From Streptomyces yangpuensis (GTDB lineage Bacteria > Actinomycetota > Actinomycetes > Streptomycetales > Streptomycetaceae): a DNA stretch of 64,000 nucleotides. Below are positions 29,325-51,698 of this stretch, one piece after another. A model generated the notes under the pieces. It was not told where the DNA came from. It worked only from the letters and a program-made list of their open reading frames with translations, and searched no databases. The position numbers and the translations under genes are program-made. The DNA lies in assembly GCF_001005295.1 (NCBI RefSeq), contig NZ_LBMK01000004.1, positions 264,651-328,650 on the forward strand. The letters are read 5' to 3'. Each line of letters begins with the position of its first letter. The first letter of the stretch is position 1.

Positions 29325-32300
29325 ATGAGATTGCTGCCGATGGGCAGAAGAGTGCGCGAGAGACCGGGGAGGGGCAGGGCCGCGGTCGCCTCCGGGGCCC
29401 TGCTGCTCTCCGTACTGGCGTCGTTCACCGGTCAGGCGGGGGCCGCCGCCGCGGCGACGCAGCCGCCCGCCGCCACGGCCACCACCGCCTCACCGCAGTC
29501 CGGCGCGTCCGTCGCCACCGCCCCCGAGGCGGGCCCCACGGCCGCCGCGCCGAAGAAGGATCCGGCGGGAGACCGCGAGGCCGTCCTGAGCTCGCTCCAG
29601 CAGAGCGGCCAGGCCGCCGGCGCCTGCCCGACGGCCCTGCAGCCGAGCACGATCGTCACCTGTGCGGTCGAGGCCAACACGACGGCGTCCTTCTCCTTCG
29701 CGGTGCCCGCACCGGACGTGCTCGTCCTGCAGCTCGCCACCTCGCCCGGCATCCTCCGGCCCAAGCTGGTGTCGCCCACGGGCGCCACCGTGACCTGCGA
29801 GCACGTGCGCGGCTCGGGGGACTACACCTACGGGGCGTTCCGCTGCCCCGCCGCCCAGGCGGGCACCTACACGATGAAGGTCGAGAACGGCACGGGTTCG
29901 CAGACCTCGATCTGGACCTCGTACCTGCCGCTGGCCTCGTCCACGACCTGCACCACCGTCGCTCCAGCCGACCGCAGGCTCGGCGCGCCCAAGGTGTTCC
30001 AGGGCTCGCTGCCGGCCGGCTCGGCGGGTGACTGCTACGCGCTGGGCCTGGCCGCGAACGATGTACTGCGCAGCTACTCCTCCTCGAAGGAGGTCCACCA
30101 CAGCGTCTACGACGCGACCGGCAAGCAGATCTGCGCCAGTGGCTACGACTGGCTGAACACCGAGAGCGCCGCGCTCGACTGCAAGCTCACCGGAACCGCG
30201 CCGTTCCGGATGATGGCGGTCCGCTCGGACGGTGCGAGCCAGCAGGCCTACGACCTCACCCTGGCCCGTCTTTCCCGGCCCGAGGGCTGCGCGCTGGTGG
30301 AGCCGCAGGCGTTCGGGGTCTCCCCGGACCTGACCGCCACCGCACGCTGCCGGATCCTGCGGGTCGCCCAGCCCGCCTGGCACTCCTTCGGCCCCGTCGC
30401 CTCCGGTACGGCCCCTGCCGGAACGCTGTTCGACGCGGCCGGTGCCGCAGTACCCGGACTCTGCCAGTACGGCGCGTGCGACCTGCCCGCCGGAGACCAC
30501 ACGTGGGCGGCCACTCCCAGGCCCGAGGCCCCCACCGCCTTCGGCATGGCCTTGCACTCCGCCAAGGAGACCCGCGGCTGCACCGCCACCCACGACAACG
30601 GTCTCGTCGCCGGGGCGGCGACCGGCACCTTCGGTGGCCCCGGGCAGAAGCTGTGCCTGAGCCTGCCGACCGCCTCGGGCAAGGGCGTGTACCTGCTGGA
30701 CCGGACGCCCGCCGGCGGGAAGGCCGTCAGCGCGGTGGTGTACGACGCGGCCGGCCTCAAGCAGTGCGAGTACTCCGGCTACTACCCCGTCTGCAAGCTG
30801 ACCGGTACCGCGCCCTTCCGGGCCGTCCTGACCGGCACTCCGGCACAGGCCTACGGCCTGGCGGTCCACCGGACCGGTGAGCCCGCGGGGTGCGCGTCCT
30901 GGCCGCGGACCGGCTTCGACGGATCGGCCGGAGCGGAGGTCTCGCTGACCGCCGACGGCCGGCAGTCCTGCCTGAGCCTGCCCGCCGACCAGCACTCGCC
31001 GGCCGAGGTGCTGGCCTACTCCCAGCCCGTCGGCCGGGAGGGAGCGACCTTCTATGTCGCCGACGCCGCGGGCAACGTCGCGTGCCTCGGCGGCGCCGTC
31101 CTGCCGTGCCCCCTGACCGTCGGTACCCCGTACACCGTGATGCTGGTCGGCGGGGCCGACACCTACAAGCTGGCACGGCGCGACGTCTCGGCGGCGGCGA
31201 ACTGCACCGCCCCGGTGTCGACGAAGGTCGGCGGCCAGGCCGTGCCCTTCGACCTGACCTCGCCGCTCGACGCGCGCTGCGTGCGGATCACCGGCGCCAC
31301 CACCGACAAGTTCTGGCTGAGCGCCCGGACGGCCGGCGTCAGGGACGACCCCTCAGCGACGCTGCAGGTGGTCGACTCCGGCGGCAGGTTCCTGTGCCGG
31401 CAGTACGCCGTCGCCTGCCGGGTCACCGGATCCACGTCGTACGTCGCGATCGTCCACACCGAGAACCACGCGGGCAAGCCGGTCCACGCCGACGTGGACA
31501 CCTGGAAGGTCGGCACGTCCGCGGGCTGGGTGCCCGAGTGCACCGCGAACCGGATCTCGGCGGACGGCTTCCCCGAGCGCAGCGGAGTGCTGACGCAGGC
31601 CTCCACCGCCTACTGCGCGGTCGTCGACATGAAGCCCTCGCAGAGTTTCGGCGTGACCGGACACAGCACGTCCAACGACCTCGCCAGCCCCGCCACCCCC
31701 GAACTGAGCCTGCTCGGCGCCCAGGGATGGGAAGGCTCCGGTACCTCGTCCGGGTACCGGTGCGAGGGCGGGTTCAGCACCCGGTGCTCGGTCGAGAGCG
31801 GCGCGAAGGCGGGCCAGGCCGTGCTGATGCTGAGCGCGGCCAGGACCGTCCTGCCGGTCGAGTTCACCATGCGGGGATCCTGCATCACGGTGTGCAGCGG
31901 GCCGCAGCAGCCGGCCCCGTGGGTGACCTCCATCAGCCCGGCGACCGGGCCCGCCGGGACGTGGAACCAGGCGGTCGTCCACGGGGTGGACCTCACCCTC
32001 GGCTCCTACCTCCAGCTGATGCCGAGCGGCTCGCAGTTCGCCGGCGGCCCCTACCTGAAGCCGCTCTCGGTGAGCCCTGACGGGACCTCGATGAAGGTTC
32101 TCGTGGACGCGACCGGCCTGCAGCCCGGCCTGTACGACGTGGGCCTCTACATCGGGCACCGGATCACCAAGGCGTACACGGTGACGGCGCCGACGACCGC
32201 CACCGAGAGCCGGTTCGTGCCGCACGGCCCCGCGCGGTTCCTGGACACCCGTGACGGTACGGGTGCGAAGAAGGAGCGGGTCGGTCCGGGCGGGGTCGTC

Positions 32301-33320
32301 ACCCTGCAGGTCGCGGGCGTCAAGGGCATCCCGGCGACGGGGGTCACGGCCGTCGTGATGAACGTGACCGCGGTGCAGCCGACCGAGGCGGGACACGTGA
32401 TGGTCTACCCGAACGGGCAGCCCAGGCCCTCGGTGTCGAACCTCAACTTCTCGCCGGGGCAGATCGTGCCGAACCTGGTGACGGTGCCGGTGCTGAACGG
32501 CAAGGTCGACCTGCGCAACAACGCGGGGTCGGTGGACCTGATCGCCGACGTCACCGGCTACTACACGGACAAGGCCGGTGCCGGCTCCGCGCTGAACCCG
32601 GTCACGCCCGCGCGGTTCCTGGACACCCGTGACGGCACGGGTGCGACCAAGCAGCGGGTCGGTCCGGGCGGGGTCGTCACCCTCCAGGTCGCCGGTGTGA
32701 AGGGCGTCCCGGCGAGCGGGGTCACTGCGGTGGTCATGAACGTGACCGCCGTCCACCCGACCGAGTCCGGACACGTCACCGTCTACCCCAACGGGCAGGC
32801 GGCACCGGGGGTGTCGAACCTCAACTTCACGCCCGGACAGATCGTCCCCAACCTGGTGACGGTGCCGGTCGTGAACGGCAAGGTCGACCTGCGCAACAAC
32901 TCCGGTTCGGTGGACCTGATCGCCGATGTCACCGGCTACTACGCGGCCGAGGGGTCGGGCTTCTCGGCCGGTGCGCCGATCCGGCTCCTCGACACCCGTG
33001 ACGGGACCGGCGCCCGCGCCGGAGCCGTCCGCGGGGGCAGCATCGTCAGTCTGCAGGTGGCCGGGGTCGAGGGCGTGCCGCTGACGGGAGTGACCGCGGT
33101 GGTCCTGAACGTCACCGTCACCAACCCGACGGAGGCGGGCCACCTGATCGTCCACCCGCACGGGACCGGACGGCCGGGCGTCTCGAACCTCAACTTCACG
33201 GCCGGGCAGACCGTCTCCAACCTGGTGGTCGTCCCCGTCGTGGACGGCCGGGTGACGTTCTACAACAACTCCGGCTCGACCGACGTGATCGCCGACCTGA
33301 ACGGCTGGTTCACGGCCTGA
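29325..33320 (+). CDS. Giant secreted protein with three C-terminal RFLDTRDGTG modules
   Basis: A 1331-residue exported protein. A signal peptide spans about residues 20-42 (AAVASGALLLSVLASFTGQA), then a Thr/Ala/Pro-rich linker. Residues 95-850 hold many beta-type repeats with paired cysteines and recurring phrases (VYDATGKQICAS, CKLTGTAPFR, LTGTAPFRAVLTGTPAQAYG). An IPT/TIG-like segment (VTSISPATGPAGTWNQAVVH) follows near 860. Three tandem modules of about 115 residues close the protein, each with (R)(F/L)LDTRDGTGA, VTLQVAGVKG, VTAVVMNVTAV, SNLNF and DVTGYY. The protein at 56334 carries the same module. Function is unknown; an extracellular or wall-surface structural or binding role is likely. 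ATG 29325 has a GGGGG ribosome site. Confidence 0.78.
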   Translation: MRLLPMGRRVRERPGRGRAAVASGALLLSVLASFTGQAGAAAAATQPPAATATTASPQSGASVATAPEAGPTAAAPKKDPAGDREAVLSSLQQSGQAAGACPTALQPSTIVTCAVEANTTASFSFAVPAPDVLVLQLATSPGILRPKLVSPTGATVTCEHVRGSGDYTYGAFRCPAAQAGTYTMKVENGTGSQTSIWTSYLPLASSTTCTTVAPADRRLGAPKVFQGSLPAGSAGDCYALGLAANDVLRSYSSSKEVHHSVYDATGKQICASGYDWLNTESAALDCKLTGTAPFRMMAVRSDGASQQAYDLTLARLSRPEGCALVEPQAFGVSPDLTATARCRILRVAQPAWHSFGPVASGTAPAGTLFDAAGAAVPGLCQYGACDLPAGDHTWAATPRPEAPTAFGMALHSAKETRGCTATHDNGLVAGAATGTFGGPGQKLCLSLPTASGKGVYLLDRTPAGGKAVSAVVYDAAGLKQCEYSGYYPVCKLTGTAPFRAVLTGTPAQAYGLAVHRTGEPAGCASWPRTGFDGSAGAEVSLTADGRQSCLSLPADQHSPAEVLAYSQPVGREGATFYVADAAGNVACLGGAVLPCPLTVGTPYTVMLVGGADTYKLARRDVSAAANCTAPVSTKVGGQAVPFDLTSPLDARCVRITGATTDKFWLSARTAGVRDDPSATLQVVDSGGRFLCRQYAVACRVTGSTSYVAIVHTENHAGKPVHADVDTWKVGTSAGWVPECTANRISADGFPERSGVLTQASTAYCAVVDMKPSQSFGVTGHSTSNDLASPATPELSLLGAQGWEGSGTSSGYRCEGGFSTRCSVESGAKAGQAVLMLSAARTVLPVEFTMRGSCITVCSGPQQPAPWVTSISPATGPAGTWNQAVVHGVDLTLGSYLQLMPSGSQFAGGPYLKPLSVSPDGTSMKVLVDATGLQPGLYDVGLYIGHRITKAYTVTAPTTATESRFVPHGPARFLDTRDGTGAKKERVGPGGVVTLQVAGVKGIPATGVTAVVMNVTAVQPTEAGHVMVYPNGQPRPSVSNLNFSPGQIVPNLVTVPVLNGKVDLRNNAGSVDLIADVTGYYTDKAGAGSALNPVTPARFLDTRDGTGATKQRVGPGGVVTLQVAGVKGVPASGVTAVVMNVTAVHPTESGHVTVYPNGQAAPGVSNLNFTPGQIVPNLVTVPVVNGKVDLRNNSGSVDLIADVTGYYAAEGSGFSAGAPIRLLDTRDGTGARAGAVRGGSIVSLQVAGVEGVPLTGVTAVVLNVTVTNPTEAGHLIVHPHGTGRPGVSNLNFTAGQTVSNLVVVPVVDGRVTFYNNSGSTDVIADLNGWFTA

Positions 33321-45999: not shown

Positions 46000-46734
46000 T
46001 CAGTGCGCGGCCACGCGTGCCATCGCACCCGTGCGGCGCGGCTGCAGCGGGACGCCGCCCGCCGCGGGCCGGGCCGGCGGTGCCGGTGCGCGGTCCCGGC
46101 GTGGCTGTGCGGCCACACCGTTCTGGACGTCCATCACGGCGTGCGCCACGAGTCCGCCCATCGGGTCGTGCCTGATCAGGTCCCGCAGGCGGGATCTGGA
46201 CGAGCGCCCCTCGTTGCCGGGGTACAGGTGCTTGCCGAGTCCGACCGCGTGGGCCAGTGCGGCGAGCGCCGCGGTCCGCGGGTCCGGCGGTACGCCGGTG
46301 CGGATCGCACTGTCGAGCCGGGCTCGGATCTCCCGGCTGATGTCCGTGTCGGTCGCCTGGTAGCGAGTCGTCGGCAACACCCCGCACATTTGTCCCGCGA
46401 CGGCGTGGACCATGCCGCAGCGCTCCAGGTGCGCGAGGTAAATCTGACGAAGCCCCAGCCGGGGTCCGCCGATCCAGTGGACGGCCCGTACCGGGCTGCC
46501 GCGCCTGCGCAGCAGTTCCAGTGCGGAGTCCAGAGTCGGATCTCCTGTCGGCCGTGGCATCACCACGGCGATACGATCCCCATCAGGGGCTATCCGTCCT
46601 GCCAGAGCCAGCTCCACTAGCTGTGCCCCGGCCAGGCCGAGGTCGAGCGACTGCGGCTGCGCCGTGGTACCCGTGGCCGGGTCCAAGGCGAGCAGCAGAA
46701 GCTCCTCCGGAATTGTTCTGCGGCTCCTGCCCAT
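46000..46734 (-). CDS. GPP34 (GOLPH3/VPS74-like) family protein
   Basis: A 244-residue protein. The N-terminus TIPEELLLLALDPATGTTAQ is the hallmark of bacterial GPP34 proteins, followed by LGLAGAQLVELALAGRI and a helical C-terminal half. Eukaryotic GOLPH3 binds phosphoinositide; the role of bacterial members is unknown, although they are often next to developmental regulators in Streptomyces. ATG 46734 has GGGGAGGC upstream. The last 35 residues are basic and Pro-rich. It is divergent from the carboxypeptidase gene and precedes the XRE regulator on the same strand. Confidence 0.82.
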   Translation of the reverse strand: MGRSRRTIPEELLLLALDPATGTTAQPQSLDLGLAGAQLVELALAGRIAPDGDRIAVVMPRPTGDPTLDSALELLRRRGSPVRAVHWIGGPRLGLRQIYLAHLERCGMVHAVAGQMCGVLPTTRYQATDTDISREIRARLDSAIRTGVPPDPRTAALAALAHAVGLGKHLYPGNEGRSSRSRLRDLIRHDPMGGLVAHAVMDVQNGVAAQPRRDRAPAPPARPAAGGVPLQPRRTGAMARVAAH

Positions 46735-46919: not shown

Positions 46920-49514
46920 GTGGCGGGCGAGTCCCCCGACAAGTCGGTAGATGAAGGAACGCCGGGGGCGGCGGAGTCGTCCGCGCAGTGCGACCCGAGG
47001 GTGTCGGTGTTCCGGCCGAGGGAATCCGAGGACGGTGCCGTGGTCGCCCGTAAGGGCGAAAGTGGCGCGGAGCCTGTGGTTCCGGCCGAGGCCGATGCCG
47101 AGCCTGTGGTTCCGGCCGAGGCCGATGCCGAGCCTGTGGTTCCGGCCGAGGCCGATGCCGAGCCTGAGGTCGCGGCCGACGCGGAGGCCGAAGTCGAGGC
47201 CGATGCGGACGCTGACGCCGAGGCCGGCGGGCGGGATGCGTTGCGCGAGGCGGTGGCGGCCTGGGTCGCCACGACGGAGGCACCTGGGCCGGACGACGCC
47301 AAGCCTTCCGCTTCCGGCTCCGCCGCTCCCGAGCCGGAGCCTGCGGCCGAGGCCGGCGGGACTGCGTCCCGTACGGCGGGGTCCGGCCCGGCGTCGGCCA
47401 AGCCGTCGGCCGAGGCCGAGGGGACTGCGTCCCGTGCGGCCGCTTCCGGTTCCGCTTCCGCGGGTACGGCCGAGCCGTCGGCCGAAGCGGACGGGACTGC
47501 GTCCCGTACGGCGGGGTCCGGCTCGGCGAAGCCGTCTGAGCCGGCCGGGCCGAAGGCTGCGGCTCCGGCCGCGGACGGCGAGCGTACGGCCGTGTTCCGT
47601 GCGGTGAAGCCGGGCTCCGGCGGGGCGGAAAAGCCGTCGGCTGAGGCCGAGGGGACTGCGTCCCGTACGGCGGCGAAGCCGTCGGCCGAGACCGAGGCAG
47701 CCGGTTCCGCTTCTGCGGAGCCGAAGGCTGCGGCTCCGGCCGCGGACAGCGAGCGCACCGCTGTGTTCCGTGCGGTGAAGCCCGGCTCCGGCGCGGCGGT
47801 CAAGCCGTCGGCCGAGGCCGACAAGGGCGGTTCCGCTTCGGTGGAGCCGAAGGCGGCGGCGGACAGTGAGCGCACCGCCGTGTTCCGGGTGCCCAAGGTG
47901 GACACGGTGAAGCCCGAGGGCGGGCAGAAGCCGAAGCCCACCCTCGCGAGGCCGGCTTCCGCATCGGCTTCCGCTTCCGCTCCGTCGACGGCTCCGGTTC
48001 CCGCCGACCAGGACGCCGACAGCGAGCGCACCGCCGTCTTCCGCGCCCCCAAGCCCAGCACCTTCGTGCCGCTGCGCACCGACGGTGACGGCACGGCCGA
48101 GGCGAAGCCGAAGCCGAAGACCCCGGTTCCGCCGCCCCCGCCGACCCCGTCGGCCTCCGCGGCGGCCGCCACCGAGCGGTTCGACCGGAGCGACCAGAGC
48201 GAGCGGACCACGCAGCAGCCGCTGCCGCCCAAGCCGCCGCTCGACATGCTGGCGGACCTGACGAACAACCCGCCCCCGCCGCCGAGCCCGCTGCGCACCG
48301 CCGTCCGCCGGTTCAAGATCTACGCGCCGCTCGTCGTGCTCCTGGCGGTCATCCTGGCCGTCGTGCAGCTCGTACGCCCGCTGCCCGAGCCGAAGCTCGT
48401 GATGACCGCGAAGTCCTCGTACACCTTCGAGGGCGCCGCGCCGCAGCTGCCCTGGCCCACCGAGGGACAGGCGTACATGGCGGCCGCCGGCCTCGGCACG
48501 CTCGGCCAGTCCGGCGAGCAGAAGCCGGTGCCGATCGCGAGCGTCACCAAGTCGATGACGGCCTACATCATCCTGCGCGACCACCCCATAAAGAAGGGTG
48601 AGCAGGGCGCGATGATCGACGTCGACAAGACGGCCGAGACCGAGGGCAAGAAGAACGACTCCGTCAACAACGAGTCCACCCTCGACACGGTCAAGGAGGG
48701 CGACAAGATCTCCGAGTACGACGCGATCGCCGCCCTCATGATCCCGTCGGCCAACAACATCGCGCGGCTCCTCGCGCGCTGGGACTCCGGTTCCCAGGAG
48801 GCGTTCGTCAAGAAGATGAACGACACCGCCAAGGAACTCGGCATGACCAACACCACGTACACGGACCCCTCGGGTCTGGACGCGACCACGGTCAGCACCG
48901 CCGAGGACCAGGTGAAGCTGGGTCTGAAGCTGGTCGAGATCGAGACGCTGCTCGACATCACCAAGAAGCCGAACTGGGTCGACCCGTCCGGCAAGAGCTG
49001 GCGCAACTGGAACGGTCTGACCGGACCCAGCGGTGCGCTCGGCATCAAGACCGGTACGACGACGAAGGCGGGCGGAAACCTGCTCTTCGCCGCGCAGAAG
49101 AAGATCGGCAACACCAACCAGCTGATCGTCGGAGCGGTTCTCGGCCAGCACAAGCCGTCGATCATCGACACCGTGCTCGCGGCGAGCAAGCAGCTGATGA
49201 CCGGTACGCAGAAGGCCCTCGAAGGCGCGACCGTCGTCAAGAAGGGTGACGTCGTCGGCTACGTCGACGATGGGCTCGGCGGCCGGACGCCGGTCGTGGC
49301 CACCGCCGACGTGCAGGCGATCGGATGGGCGTCGCTGACCGTGACCGTGAAGCTGGCGGACGGCGGGAGCAAGATGCCGCAGACCGCGACGGCCGGCACC
49401 GAGGTCGGCATGCTGACCGTCGGCGAGGGCGCCAGCCAGGTCAAGGTGCCGGTGGCGCTCAAGAGCGACCTGGCCTCGCCGGGCATCGGCAGCAAGCTGA
49501 CGCGCATCGGCTGA
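46920..49514 (+). CDS. D-alanyl-D-alanine carboxypeptidase with long repetitive cytoplasmic tail
   Basis: An 864-residue low-molecular-mass penicillin-binding protein. Residues 1-460 are disordered and Ala/Glu/Pro-rich. They contain three exact EPVVPAEADA copies and four ERTAVFR motifs, in the forms (G/S)ERTAVFR(A/V). One membrane helix follows (about 465-487, APLVVLLAVILAVVQLV), so the tail is cytoplasmic. The extracellular peptidase S11 domain has Ser541-x-x-Lys544 (SVTK), Ser610-A-Asn612 and Lys710-T-G. It trims the terminal D-Ala of peptidoglycan. The likely counterpart, SCO4439, is reported to act in spore-wall maturation. The GTG start follows GGAGGAGC. The ERTAVFR threonines resemble kinase or FHA recognition sites (inference). 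Confidence 0.9.
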   Translation: MAGESPDKSVDEGTPGAAESSAQCDPRVSVFRPRESEDGAVVARKGESGAEPVVPAEADAEPVVPAEADAEPVVPAEADAEPEVAADAEAEVEADADADAEAGGRDALREAVAAWVATTEAPGPDDAKPSASGSAAPEPEPAAEAGGTASRTAGSGPASAKPSAEAEGTASRAAASGSASAGTAEPSAEADGTASRTAGSGSAKPSEPAGPKAAAPAADGERTAVFRAVKPGSGGAEKPSAEAEGTASRTAAKPSAETEAAGSASAEPKAAAPAADSERTAVFRAVKPGSGAAVKPSAEADKGGSASVEPKAAADSERTAVFRVPKVDTVKPEGGQKPKPTLARPASASASASAPSTAPVPADQDADSERTAVFRAPKPSTFVPLRTDGDGTAEAKPKPKTPVPPPPPTPSASAAAATERFDRSDQSERTTQQPLPPKPPLDMLADLTNNPPPPPSPLRTAVRRFKIYAPLVVLLAVILAVVQLVRPLPEPKLVMTAKSSYTFEGAAPQLPWPTEGQAYMAAAGLGTLGQSGEQKPVPIASVTKSMTAYIILRDHPIKKGEQGAMIDVDKTAETEGKKNDSVNNESTLDTVKEGDKISEYDAIAALMIPSANNIARLLARWDSGSQEAFVKKMNDTAKELGMTNTTYTDPSGLDATTVSTAEDQVKLGLKLVEIETLLDITKKPNWVDPSGKSWRNWNGLTGPSGALGIKTGTTTKAGGNLLFAAQKKIGNTNQLIVGAVLGQHKPSIIDTVLAASKQLMTGTQKALEGATVVKKGDVVGYVDDGLGGRTPVVATADVQAIGWASLTVTVKLADGGSKMPQTATAGTEVGMLTVGEGASQVKVPVALKSDLASPGIGSKLTRIG
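47071..47160 (+). repeat. Three exact 30-bp tandem repeats inside the carboxypeptidase gene
   Basis: Positions 47071-47100, 47101-47130 and 47131-47160 are identical (AGCCTGTGGTTCCGGCCGAG then GCCGATGCCG) and encode EPVVPAEADA. A fourth, diverged copy begins at 47161. Unit identity at DNA level implies recent expansion, so copy number may differ between strains. Confidence 0.9.
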
Positions 49515-49570
49515 CCGGCCGACCGGCCGACCGACTGAGCGGCCGCCCGGCCGACCGACCGGCTGGCCGC

Positions 49571-49714
49571 CGTCCGTGGCCGTCCTCGGACGGCCACGGA
49601 CGCCGCAGTGAGAGCGCTGATCCGGCGCCCCGGGCAACCCCGGGGCGCCGGTGCGCGTCTAGCGAGTGTCCGCCCGGTCCGCCGGCCGGACGCGACAGGG
49701 CCCAGGCCCTGTCG
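49571..49714. terminator. Three consecutive hairpins after the carboxypeptidase gene
   Basis: First, CGTCCGTGGCCGTCC (49571-49585) with 49588-49602. Second, CCGGCGCCCCGGG (49622-49634) with 49639-49651. Third, CGACAGGGCC (49693-49702) with GGCCCTGTCG (49705-49714). All arms are perfect. They fill the 258-bp gap before the next gene together with short CCGGCCGA repeats (49515-49560). A strong insulating terminator array is likely. Confidence 0.8.
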
Positions 49715-49772
49715 TCGGACCCGGGACGCGCGGACGCGTGCCGGTGGGATCCATGTGTTGGGGAGTGCGGCA

Positions 49773-51698
49773 GTGACCACCGCTGAGCAGCAGGGCAGGC
49801 GCGGAGCAGCCGTCCCGTCGGCAGCCGGTGGCGGCCCGGGCCGTGGCGCCCTGCCGCCGCAGCAGGGGCAGCAGGGGCAGCAGGGGCAGCAGGGGCAGCA
49901 GGAGCCGCCGGAGGGGCCCCCGCGGCGCACCCGTAGCCGCGTCCTCGATCCGCTGCGCCGCCACCCGGTGGCCGTCGCCACCGTGGTCGCGGCCGTGCTG
50001 CACGTCGTCTGGTTCCTCGCCTTCGCCAACAGCGGCGGTGACCTCGCCGCGCAGGACGCCTGGGCGGAGTTCGTGGGCCGGCATCCCGACTCGGCCTACA
50101 ACCTCGCCTGGTACGGCGGCATGCATCCCGTCTCGTACAGCGTGGTCTCGCCGTACCTCATGCACATGCTCGGCGTACGGACCACGATGATGATCGCGGG
50201 CACCGTCTCGGCCGGGCTCCTCGCCCTGATCCTGACCCGCTGCCGCGGGGCCGTGCGGGAGCCGCTGTGGCCCGCGCTGGCGGGGGCGTACGGGCTGTTC
50301 TGCAACGCGCTCTCGGGCCGGGTCACCTTCGGTCTCGGTGCGATGTTCGCCCTCGGCGCGGTCGCGGCGGTCTTCTGCTGGCCCCGCAAGTGGGCGCGGC
50401 GGCGCTGGGCGAAGGCCGCGGTCGCGGCCCCGCTGGCCGGGATCGCGACCGCCGCCAGTCCCGTCGCGGGCCTGTTCCTCGGGGTGGTCGCGGCCGCGCT
50501 GTTCCTGAGCCGGCGGCGCCCCGGTGCGTACGCGCTCGGGCTGGCGCCGGTGGCCGTGGTCGGGCTGTCGGCCTGGCTCTTCCCGTTCTCCGGGACCCAG
50601 CCGATGAAGATCGGTTCGGCGGGGCTGCCGTTCCTGTTCGGGCTGCTGATCTTCTTCCTCGTGCCGCGGCGCTGGAAGACGGTCCGGATCGCCGCCGCGG
50701 TCTACGCCCTCGGGGTCTTCCTGACCTGGGCGATCGACTCCCAGGTCGGCTCGAACGTCACCAGGATGGTGATGCTGTTCGGCGGCGCCGTGCTGCTCGC
50801 GGCCCTCCCGTACGAGGTCCCGCGCTCGCGGCGGTGGTACGGGGTGCTGCTCGCGTTCGTCGGGCTGAACGCCTGGATCACCACCAACAGCATCACGGAC
50901 ATCGTCCGCACCACCCCGGTGGCCGCCTGGAACCGGGAGCTGGCCCCGCTCGTGGACCAGCTCCAGAAGGCCGGCGCGGACCGCGGCCGGGTCGAGGTGG
51001 TGCCCGTCAGCAGCCACCGCGAGTCCTCCGCCTTCCCCTCGTACGTGAACCTCGCGCGCGGCTGGAACCGGCAGGCCGACCTGGAGCGCAACCCGCTCTT
51101 CTACGACGACACCCTCACCGCCGACAGCTACCGGGCGTGGCTGGAGCGCTGGGCCGTGCACTACGTGGTGCTGCCGGCCGACAAACCCGATTCGGGCGGC
51201 GAGGACGAGGCGAAACTGGTGCGCGCGGGGCTCCCGTACCTCCAGCAGGTGTGGGGCGACGCGAACTGGCAGCTCTTCAAGGTCGACGCGCCGGCGAACC
51301 TGGTGAGGGGGCCGGCGAGCGTGGTGCGGGCGGGCGCCGACCAGCTGGTCATCGACGTGAAGCAGGCCGGGCGGGTGCTGGTGCGGATCCCGCACTCGCC
51401 GTGGCTGGGGCTGGTGGACGCGGCCGGGAAGCCGGTGCCGCCGCCGCAGGAGACCGCGGAGTCCAAGGCGCGGGGTGCCGTGCCGAAGGAGTTCGCGAAC
51501 ACGGCCGGCTGCCTGTTCAAAGCGCTCCCGGACGGTGAGGGCGACGTGTGGACCGAGCTGCTGGTCCCGGGGCCGGGGGAGTACCGCGTGGCGGGGAAGT
51601 ACCAGCTGCCGCGAGGCACGCCCTGCCCGGAGGAGGTCATCCGGGCGGCGTTGGGAGCGCCGGAACGTCCGGCTTCGGCGACCGGCTCGACTCCTTGA
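49773..51698 (+). CDS. Large polytopic membrane protein of unknown function
   Basis: A 641-residue membrane protein. The GTG start at 49773 has GGGGAG at good spacing. The head has a (QQG)n tract from a CAGCAGGGG repeat. About ten helices cover residues 65-360, with a conserved-looking luminal loop GGDLAAQDAWAEFVGRHPDS then AYNLAWYGGMHPVSYS. The last 270 residues are extracytoplasmic (REL...VVPVSSHRESSAFPSY, RGWNRQADLERNPLFYDD, YVVLPADKPDS). The layout resembles GT-C-fold glycosyltransferases or related exported-polymer enzymes, but no catalytic Asp pair can be confirmed; simple annotation as MFS is unlikely. Likely transcribed alone after the triple hairpin. Confidence 0.7.
   Translation: MTTAEQQGRRGAAVPSAAGGGPGRGALPPQQGQQGQQGQQGQQEPPEGPPRRTRSRVLDPLRRHPVAVATVVAAVLHVVWFLAFANSGGDLAAQDAWAEFVGRHPDSAYNLAWYGGMHPVSYSVVSPYLMHMLGVRTTMMIAGTVSAGLLALILTRCRGAVREPLWPALAGAYGLFCNALSGRVTFGLGAMFALGAVAAVFCWPRKWARRRWAKAAVAAPLAGIATAASPVAGLFLGVVAAALFLSRRRPGAYALGLAPVAVVGLSAWLFPFSGTQPMKIGSAGLPFLFGLLIFFLVPRRWKTVRIAAAVYALGVFLTWAIDSQVGSNVTRMVMLFGGAVLLAALPYEVPRSRRWYGVLLAFVGLNAWITTNSITDIVRTTPVAAWNRELAPLVDQLQKAGADRGRVEVVPVSSHRESSAFPSYVNLARGWNRQADLERNPLFYDDTLTADSYRAWLERWAVHYVVLPADKPDSGGEDEAKLVRAGLPYLQQVWGDANWQLFKVDAPANLVRGPASVVRAGADQLVIDVKQAGRVLVRIPHSPWLGLVDAAGKPVPPPQETAESKARGAVPKEFANTAGCLFKALPDGEGDVWTELLVPGPGEYRVAGKYQLPRGTPCPEEVIRAALGAPERPASATGSTP
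49860..49903 (+). repeat. CAGCAGGGG tandem repeat (poly-QQG)
   Basis: Four exact CAGCAGGGG units and a fifth, CAGCAGGAG, encode QQGQQGQQGQQGQQE in the cytoplasmic head of the membrane protein. Slippage-prone and probably variable in length without shifting the frame. Confidence 0.85.

Follow-up and report, generated by a model that had tools for sequence, protein, structure and literature searches.

A conserved threonine motif repeated in the N-terminal tail of a predicted Streptomyces carboxypeptidase recurs next to the membrane in the kinase PknB

Why should an enzyme that is predicted to trim the spore wall carry, ahead of its membrane helix, a long low-complexity tail in which the same threonine-containing heptapeptide is written four times? 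The question is raised by an 864-residue protein encoded in a window of 64,000 nucleotides of Streptomyces yangpuensis (contig NZ_LBMK01000004.1, positions 264,651 to 328,650), the window being the whole stretch of DNA that was analysed. Judged by its domain, catalytic motifs, layout and synteny, this protein is a DD-carboxypeptidase of the SCO4439 type. A preliminary description had noted the repeats and proposed that their threonines serve as sites for Ser/Thr kinases or FHA proteins. This study observed that the tail carries a genuine, conserved short linear motif and, as a new observation, that the PASTA kinase PknB carries a like motif, DQPTTALR, between its kinase domain and the membrane helix. 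At a probability of roughly 0.6, we consider the tail motifs to be PknB-type phosphothreonine sites, with an FHA protein as their probable reader, on a fast-evolving tail that is tied to the kinase. The gene and the four copies are placed as follows (papers are cited throughout from excerpts, by their PubMed Central numbers).

46920 to 49514, forward strand: SCO4439-type DD-carboxypeptidase of 864 residues, GTG to TGA, with an N-terminal low-complexity tail, a transmembrane helix and an S11 domain (S11 domain and synteny; PMC12402492 and PMC4751497)
47580 to 47600, forward strand: ERTAVFR copy 1, residue 221
47751 to 47771, forward strand: ERTAVFR copy 2, residue 278
47868 to 47888, forward strand: ERTAVFR copy 3, residue 317
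48024 to 48044, forward strand: ERTAVFR copy 4, residue 369

All four copies of the (G/S)ERTAVFR repeat are present as described, preceded by glycine once and by serine three times. When the tail was shuffled 2000 times, the most frequent heptapeptide had three copies in one shuffle and two in 48, against four in the real tail. The preliminary description had also taken repeat identity as a sign of recent expansion, and this applies to only one of its two repeats. The ERTAVFR copies differ among themselves only at synonymous DNA positions and so are not fresh DNA copies, and a recent DNA expansion was rejected for them; copies 1 and 2, which are 171 bases apart, lie within a diverged tandem duplication. 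The three EPVVPAEADA units, by contrast, are identical base for base and represent a recent, strain-specific local DNA expansion, the exact string being found in none of the 27 other representatives of the close clade defined below.

47070 to 47159, forward strand: three EPVVPAEADA units of 30 bases each, residues 51, 61 and 71

Within the sampled part of its own genome, repeated sites of this kind are peculiar to this gene. We sampled 864 kb (800 kb plus the window), half of it around the FHA genes on contig C3, with 698 genes called by a simple script, and the carboxypeptidase was the only gene with at least two T[AT]x[FL][KR] sites, 17 genes having one and 680 none. The search for ERTAVF in other proteins that had been suggested earlier found no second gene in the genome with the exact ERTAVFR, and the relation to PknB emerged only once the motif was generalised. 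Two looser scans gave 9 matches (4 in the reversed control), four of them the window's own copies, and 15 matches (6 in the reversed control), five of them SRTQ(V/I)LR copies of a paralogue, while the remaining 5 and 10 were single and in various frames. This paralogous S11 carboxypeptidase (L002, G000:C8:103150-107376), an 856-residue open reading frame on the reverse strand, has five SRTQ(V/I)LR copies and ERTSRFVALK in its tail and, by its sequence, repeats the design of the first enzyme with a motif variant of its own.

At E <= 1e-40 the enzyme was matched in 120 of 121 Streptomyces genomes, though in a few only in part or by a paralogue, and class-wide in 23 of 197 genomes, of which 16 were Streptomyces and seven were other; one scan of named genomes returned 37 Streptomyces loci at which the match ran nearly full length, some ended by contig edges. 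During the analysis of the tails we only considered 138 that exceeded 150 residues and had an intact 5' side, truncated and shorter tails and paralogues being dropped, and these were cut by similarity of the catalytic part to 116, comprising 28 from a close clade (at least 73% identity to the window) and 88 from other Streptomyces. ERTAVFR is one form of an older motif, (D/S)-x-(P/R)-T-x-x-(F/L)-(K/R), found in all 28 clade tails and in 84 of the 88 others, and the conservation in orthologues on which the earlier proposal had been staked is thereby borne out. Relative to shuffled tails the motif is enriched 54-fold in the clade and 37-fold in the other Streptomyces, with regular expressions that were composed after the tails had been seen and of which only the -3/+3/+4 pattern matches an independent published logo. 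The clade holds 147 copies of T-x-x-hydrophobic-basic with an acidic residue at -3, -2 or -1, in 28 of 28 tails (shuffled mean 2.7), and the other Streptomyces hold 205 copies of (D/E)xxTxx-hydrophobic-basic in 84 of 88 tails (shuffled 5.5). Reversed patterns were near chance, at 2 vs 2.8 in the clade and 9 vs 5.5 in the others. The copy number per tail ranges from 1 to 8 in the clade and from 0 to 5 elsewhere.

The clade form is mostly SERTAVFR, and DQPT(A/T)x(F/L)(K/R) is present in 78 of the 88 other tails, most commonly as DQPTTMLK (34), DQPTAVFK (31) and DQPTTALK (20). Tails of the window clade have their acid at -2 and -4, which is why the -3 pattern is uncommon among them, with 8 copies in 6 tails. 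When the other positions are held constant, T stands at the centre in 319 cases, A in 2, P in 1, V in 1 and S in none (n = 323), and Ser-centred versions of the patterns are at or below chance (1 vs 5.8 shuffled in the clade, 7 vs 6.1 in the others), which is the preference for threonine over serine expected of sites for PASTA kinases and FHA proteins; FHA domains are specific for phosphothreonine (PMC3146460). At +3, phenylalanine was counted 246 times, leucine 73, isoleucine 3 and others 5. In comparison with eight orthologues, motif codons showed 8.4% nonsynonymous and 31.6% synonymous differences, as opposed to 50.8% and 17.9% over the remaining tail, in alignments that may still favour the pairing of motif copies. 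An earlier codon comparison of the motif copies was circular, the copies having been picked by exact protein match, and the orthologue comparison took its place.

The second line of evidence comes from the kinase. The own-genome gene with DQPTTALR (L299:6160-8196, reverse strand; G000:C3:296160-298196), one of five kinase-like genes in the sample, encodes a Pkinase domain and four PASTA domains, and its best solved match is PknB of Mycobacterium tuberculosis (E 1.6e-114 in a PDB search used solely for naming the kinase); we accordingly name it, on sequence, a PknB orthologue. Of 30 PknB loci, 28 were extracted, 20 from Streptomyces and eight from other genera, and a juxtamembrane T-x-x-hydrophobic-(K/R) was observed in all 20 Streptomyces PknBs, 11 of them with exactly DQPTTALR, and in none of the eight from other genera. 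When 121 evenly drawn Streptomyces genomes were then searched for DQPTTAL followed by (A/C)(A/G), 87 matches in 68 genomes were obtained, with none in the reversed control. Seventy-two of the 87 could be assigned, 47 to pknB, 25 to the carboxypeptidase and none to any other gene. The 25 Lys-ending matches lie, by coordinates, at most 700 bases upstream of the carboxypeptidase domain, and 19 were also read in frame, four of these being assigned through coordinates; 47 of the 62 non-Lys matches are in pknB, eight of them via coordinates, and outside the 72 there are 13 Arg-ending and two CA-ending matches. This near-identical octapeptide in many species suggests that wall trimming is tied to PknB.

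Before this, DQPT-x-x-(F/L)-K had been entertained as a carboxypeptidase-only string, with 15 matches in nine of ten genomes, all placed by coordinates beside the carboxypeptidase, in a set picked for carrying DQPT-type motifs. That idea was refuted by the DQPTTALR of PknB, which the scan had missed because its pattern was restricted to a T-centred codon at +2 with Lys at +4. The juxtamembrane segment of PknB also has a second recurring threonine motif, TS(M/L)(M/L)PP-like, about ten residues past DQPTTALR.

The favoured reading, that the tail motifs are PknB-type phosphothreonine sites, can be set out as follows. The tail would be a fast-evolving, probably disordered cytoplasmic segment displaying several copies of acidic-x-(P/R)-T-x-x-(F/L)-(K/R); the PknB-type PASTA kinase would phosphorylate the motif threonines on the tail and on its own juxtamembrane segment; an FHA protein would bind the phosphothreonines and hold the carboxypeptidase together with the kinase and the peptidoglycan machinery, the several copies probably giving avidity. 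In the simplest model the tail would be a further docking strip that places a D-Ala-removing enzyme at the PknB/FHA hub. Ten FHA domains were found in the genome, and two FHA genes lie at most 8 kb from pknB, which we take, from their gene neighbourhood, to be FhaA and FhaB and which are the first candidates as readers. A third is an FHA protein that we presume, from resemblance, to be a GarA homologue (L216, G000:C11), which has ETTSTIS where the mycobacterial protein has ETTSVFR.

Published phosphosites agree with the favoured reading in part. In the phosphoproteome of PknA-depleted M. tuberculosis, the surroundings of phosphothreonines are acidic at -1, -3 to -6 and +7, with Pro at -1 and +2, Leu/Val at +3 and Lys/Arg at +4 (PMC7164672). 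DQPTTMLK and DQPTTALK fit this PknA-dependent logo at acidic -3, Pro -1, Leu +3 and Lys/Arg +4. All share the acidic residues upstream, the hydrophobic +3 and the basic +4, the window strain having its acid at -2 and -4, not -3; its DSERTAVFR fits the logo at -4 (Asp) and +4 (Arg), and at +3 as hydrophobic only. It is important to note that in the juxtamembrane segment of Streptococcus pneumoniae StkP none of seven phosphothreonines fits the predicted StkP substrate motif (PMC12077195), and therefore neither a motif match nor its absence can settle phosphorylation. DQPTTMLK, DQPTAVFK, SERTAVF and DQPTTALK were not found in open-licence main texts, in which only papers with ETTSVFR matched.

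With reference to known systems, one close likeness is the juxtamembrane segment of mycobacterial PknB, which when phosphorylated binds FhaA in M. tuberculosis and which combines membrane-proximal cytoplasmic threonine sites, an FHA reader and peptidoglycan control (PMC12077195). In mycobacteria the segment belongs to the kinase, whereas in Streptomyces an enzyme that trims peptidoglycan bears several copies of a like motif as well. A juxtamembrane DAERTSLL expected for M. tuberculosis PknB was not found by the literature search, in which a passage with TSLLSSAAGNLSGPR was seen. In the same organism FhaA binds phosphorylated CwlM and MurJ (MviN), cell-wall proteins phosphorylated by PknB and read by an FHA hub, and PknB is proposed to detect uncrosslinked peptidoglycan through its PASTA domain; MurJ differs in being a proposed lipid II flippase with a pseudokinase domain, and the excerpts of that paper describe no repeated-motif tail (PMC6180346). 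The local E-x-T-x-V-F-R is shared with ETTSVFR of GarA/OdhI, the GarA phosphopeptide ending in VETTSVFR (PMC4322841), and PknG resembles the tail in that several threonines in its disordered N-terminal extension dock the FHA protein GarA (PMC8546545, PMC5448819, PMC4322841). These are metabolic regulators, not wall enzymes, and the GarA-like protein of the window strain's genome lacks the VFR.

Four tail elements beyond those of the preliminary description enter the weighing or stand beside it.

46992 to 47021, forward strand: DPRVSVFRPR, a motif-like copy near the N-terminus with Val replacing Thr (alignment of representatives)
47358 to 47672, forward strand: stretch with four GTASR(T/A)A copies, residues 147, 168, 192 and 245
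48057 to 48077, forward strand: STFVPLR, counterpart of ERTS(K/Q/T)FV(A/P)L(K/R) in other Streptomyces (STFVPL invariant in 16 aligned sequences)
48201 to 48284, forward strand: juxtamembrane ERTTQQPLPPKPPLDMLADLTNNPPPPP, with the conserved ERTTQQPLPP (alignment of 16 sequences)

The fuller form ERTS(K/Q/T/R)FV(A/P)L(K/R) occurs in 70 of the 88 other Streptomyces tails, in 5 of the 28 clade tails and in all five further paralogues read, and the related (S/T)xFVxL(K/R) in 27 of the 28 clade tails. The juxtamembrane ERT(T/K/R)QQPLPP is found in 27 of 28 clade and 62 of 88 other Streptomyces tails.

Several observations weigh against phosphothreonine sites tied to PknB. The N-terminal copy, DPR(L/V/F)(S/A/T)V(F/L)R, has Leu, Val or Phe instead of the central Thr in 43 of the 44 representatives that carry it, and phospho-docking leaves this copy unexplained; it may act as a pseudosubstrate or as a docking site in its own right. 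In ERTSxFVxL(K/R) the threonine is held less strictly (T 70, A 10, P 2, S 1). The Pro at +2 of the published logo is missing from the motif, and the window copies fit that logo less well, since their -3 is Ser or Gly, their -1 Arg and their +3 Phe. The window strain's two proteins are not identical, with SERTAVFR in one and DQPTTALR in the other, and the motif is absent from four of the 88 other Streptomyces tails and from several other genera. An S. coelicolor SCO4439 mutant was reported, as data not shown, to be complemented by transmembrane plus catalytic fragments (PMC4751497), and the tail is thus dispensable for the phenotypes scored there. The excerpted main texts of two phosphoproteome papers, on S. 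rimosus and S. albus, likewise contain no mention of a carboxypeptidase.

The comparison with other genera adds to these points. At 40 loci from 14 other genera of the family, the motif has different flanks, as in DSPTTALR, DAETRLLR, AEPTMTLR and DSRTTMLR, and T-x-x-(F/L/M)-(K/R) is enriched in genera g3 (18 vs 0.6 shuffled, 6 tails) and g14 (38 vs 1.5, 9 tails), sparse in g7 (4 vs 0.5, 8 tails) and at zero in g4, g6, g8, g16 and g17. It was predicted in advance, on the premise that both motifs serve one reader, that PknB would keep a basic +4 in genera where the carboxypeptidase keeps T-x-x-L-(K/R), and this failed in nine of nine PknBs from g3, g11, g14 and g15, whose sites read TTVLP, TTMLP, TTAMP, TSILP, TAVMP or similar; in one of the nine genomes (G179) the carboxypeptidase tail itself is without the motif. 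A basic +4 was absent in 17 of 17 non-Streptomyces PknBs examined, so the two proteins do not change together across genera, and outside Streptomyces they share only T-x-x-hydrophobic. The close likeness of PknB and carboxypeptidase is therefore a Streptomyces feature, and long-term co-evolution is unsupported.

Of the other explanations, the one that survives best, though we regard it as considerably less probable than phosphothreonine sites, is that the motif is a docking peptide for a partner other than an FHA protein, such as a substrate-docking groove of a kinase or a divisome or tip protein, which would bind it unphosphorylated, the threonine being kept for fit. The N-terminal copies that keep the core without the threonine are what it would lead one to expect, and the hydrophobic +3 is almost as fixed as the threonine. 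Set against it are the partial match to the published phosphosite logo and the internal threonine itself, which is kept in 319 of 323 copies and rarely replaced even by Val or Ser, unusual for a residue that only fits a shape. It is rather improbable that PknB or another Streptomyces kinase phosphorylates the tail with no reader, so that the phosphates alter only its charge and dynamics. The multiple sites and their variable number (1 to 8 in the clade, 0 to 5 elsewhere) suit such an effect, and bulk charge was raised as an option for StkP (PMC12077195), but a hydrophobic +3 and the choice of Thr over Ser would point to selection by an FHA reader, and bulk charge would hardly preserve an octapeptide.

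Functionless, neutral turnover of low-complexity repeats is very unlikely: the Ala/Pro/Ser/Glu-rich linkers do diverge fast, EPVVPAEADA is a clean recent expansion and the tail-less enzyme complements in S. coelicolor (PMC4751497), yet motif codons are kept while the linkers change, and conservation across the genus is far above that of shuffled tails. Least credible of all is the label of the SCO4439 papers, a putative transcriptional regulator domain taken from the Conserved Domain Database entry PHA03307 with 44% similarity in Streptomyces (PMC4751497), since residues 1 to 531 have no Pfam match at E <= 1 and A, P, S, E and G make up 65% of the tail.

As for the identity of the protein, the Peptidase_S11 domain was matched at E 7.7e-34 (Pfam), and the SxxK, SxN and KTG catalytic motifs are all found. 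The order of tail, transmembrane helix and catalytic domain, with a divergent GPP34 gene alongside, resembles SCO4439 (PMC4751497) and the SCO4439-SCO4440 pair, in which a GOLPH3-domain gene adjoins the enzyme gene (PMC12402492), and on this synteny and layout the gene was taken as the orthologue of S. coelicolor SCO4439, a spore-wall DD-carboxypeptidase with reported activity (PMC4751497). The structure model was given no weight because its mean pLDDT (predicted local distance difference test) is 42, the catalytic domain being poor too; by composition the tail is probably disordered. The remaining features are listed here.

46920 to 46949, forward strand: conserved N-terminus (M/V)AGESPDKSV, invariant across 16 aligned sequences
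48288 to 48371, forward strand: transmembrane helix, residues 457-484 in the model, starting at the RTAVRRFK stretch (low-confidence model and the sequence itself)
48513 to 49112, forward strand: Peptidase S11 domain, with SVTK at 48540, SAN at 48747 and KTG at 49047 (Pfam and motifs)
46000 to 46734, reverse strand: divergent GPP34 (GOLPH3-like) neighbour, counterpart of SCO4440 (domain match; PMC12402492)
44833 to 45717, reverse strand: helix-turn-helix/DUF5753 regulator, the gene after the GPP34 neighbour (domain match)

Elsewhere in the window, an 8-base CGGCCGAC-like repeat run begins at the carboxypeptidase stop codon (49508-49571), a 696-residue open reading frame without a Pfam match at E <= 0.01 follows downstream (49608-51698, forward strand), and a 378-base unit is repeated in tandem at 32229-32946 (1.9 copies at 87%).

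In summary, the proposal that the repeated threonines are kinase or FHA sites gains partial support, from the conservation in orthologues and from the juxtamembrane match in PknB. A further step, that PknB and the carboxypeptidase form a dedicated Streptomyces module, is offered tentatively and as a minority expectation: a short phosphothreonine code, DQPTTAL(K/R) at its strictest, confined to two membrane proteins as far as the matches were assigned and present many times over on the enzyme, would let a single FHA reader cross-link both, and the sensing of uncrosslinked wall would position an enzyme that lowers crosslinking. SCO4439 influences crosslinking in spores, resistance to heat and acid, swelling during germination and sensitivity to glycopeptides (PMC4751497), and the excerpts of PMC4751497 and PMC12402492 neither describe a threonine motif in its tail nor explain what switches or places the enzyme. 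The motif common to PknB and the carboxypeptidase offers a direct and cheap test of a link from kinase to carboxypeptidase, and that link, if true, would supersede the label of a transcriptional regulator domain, which the tail sequence does not support.

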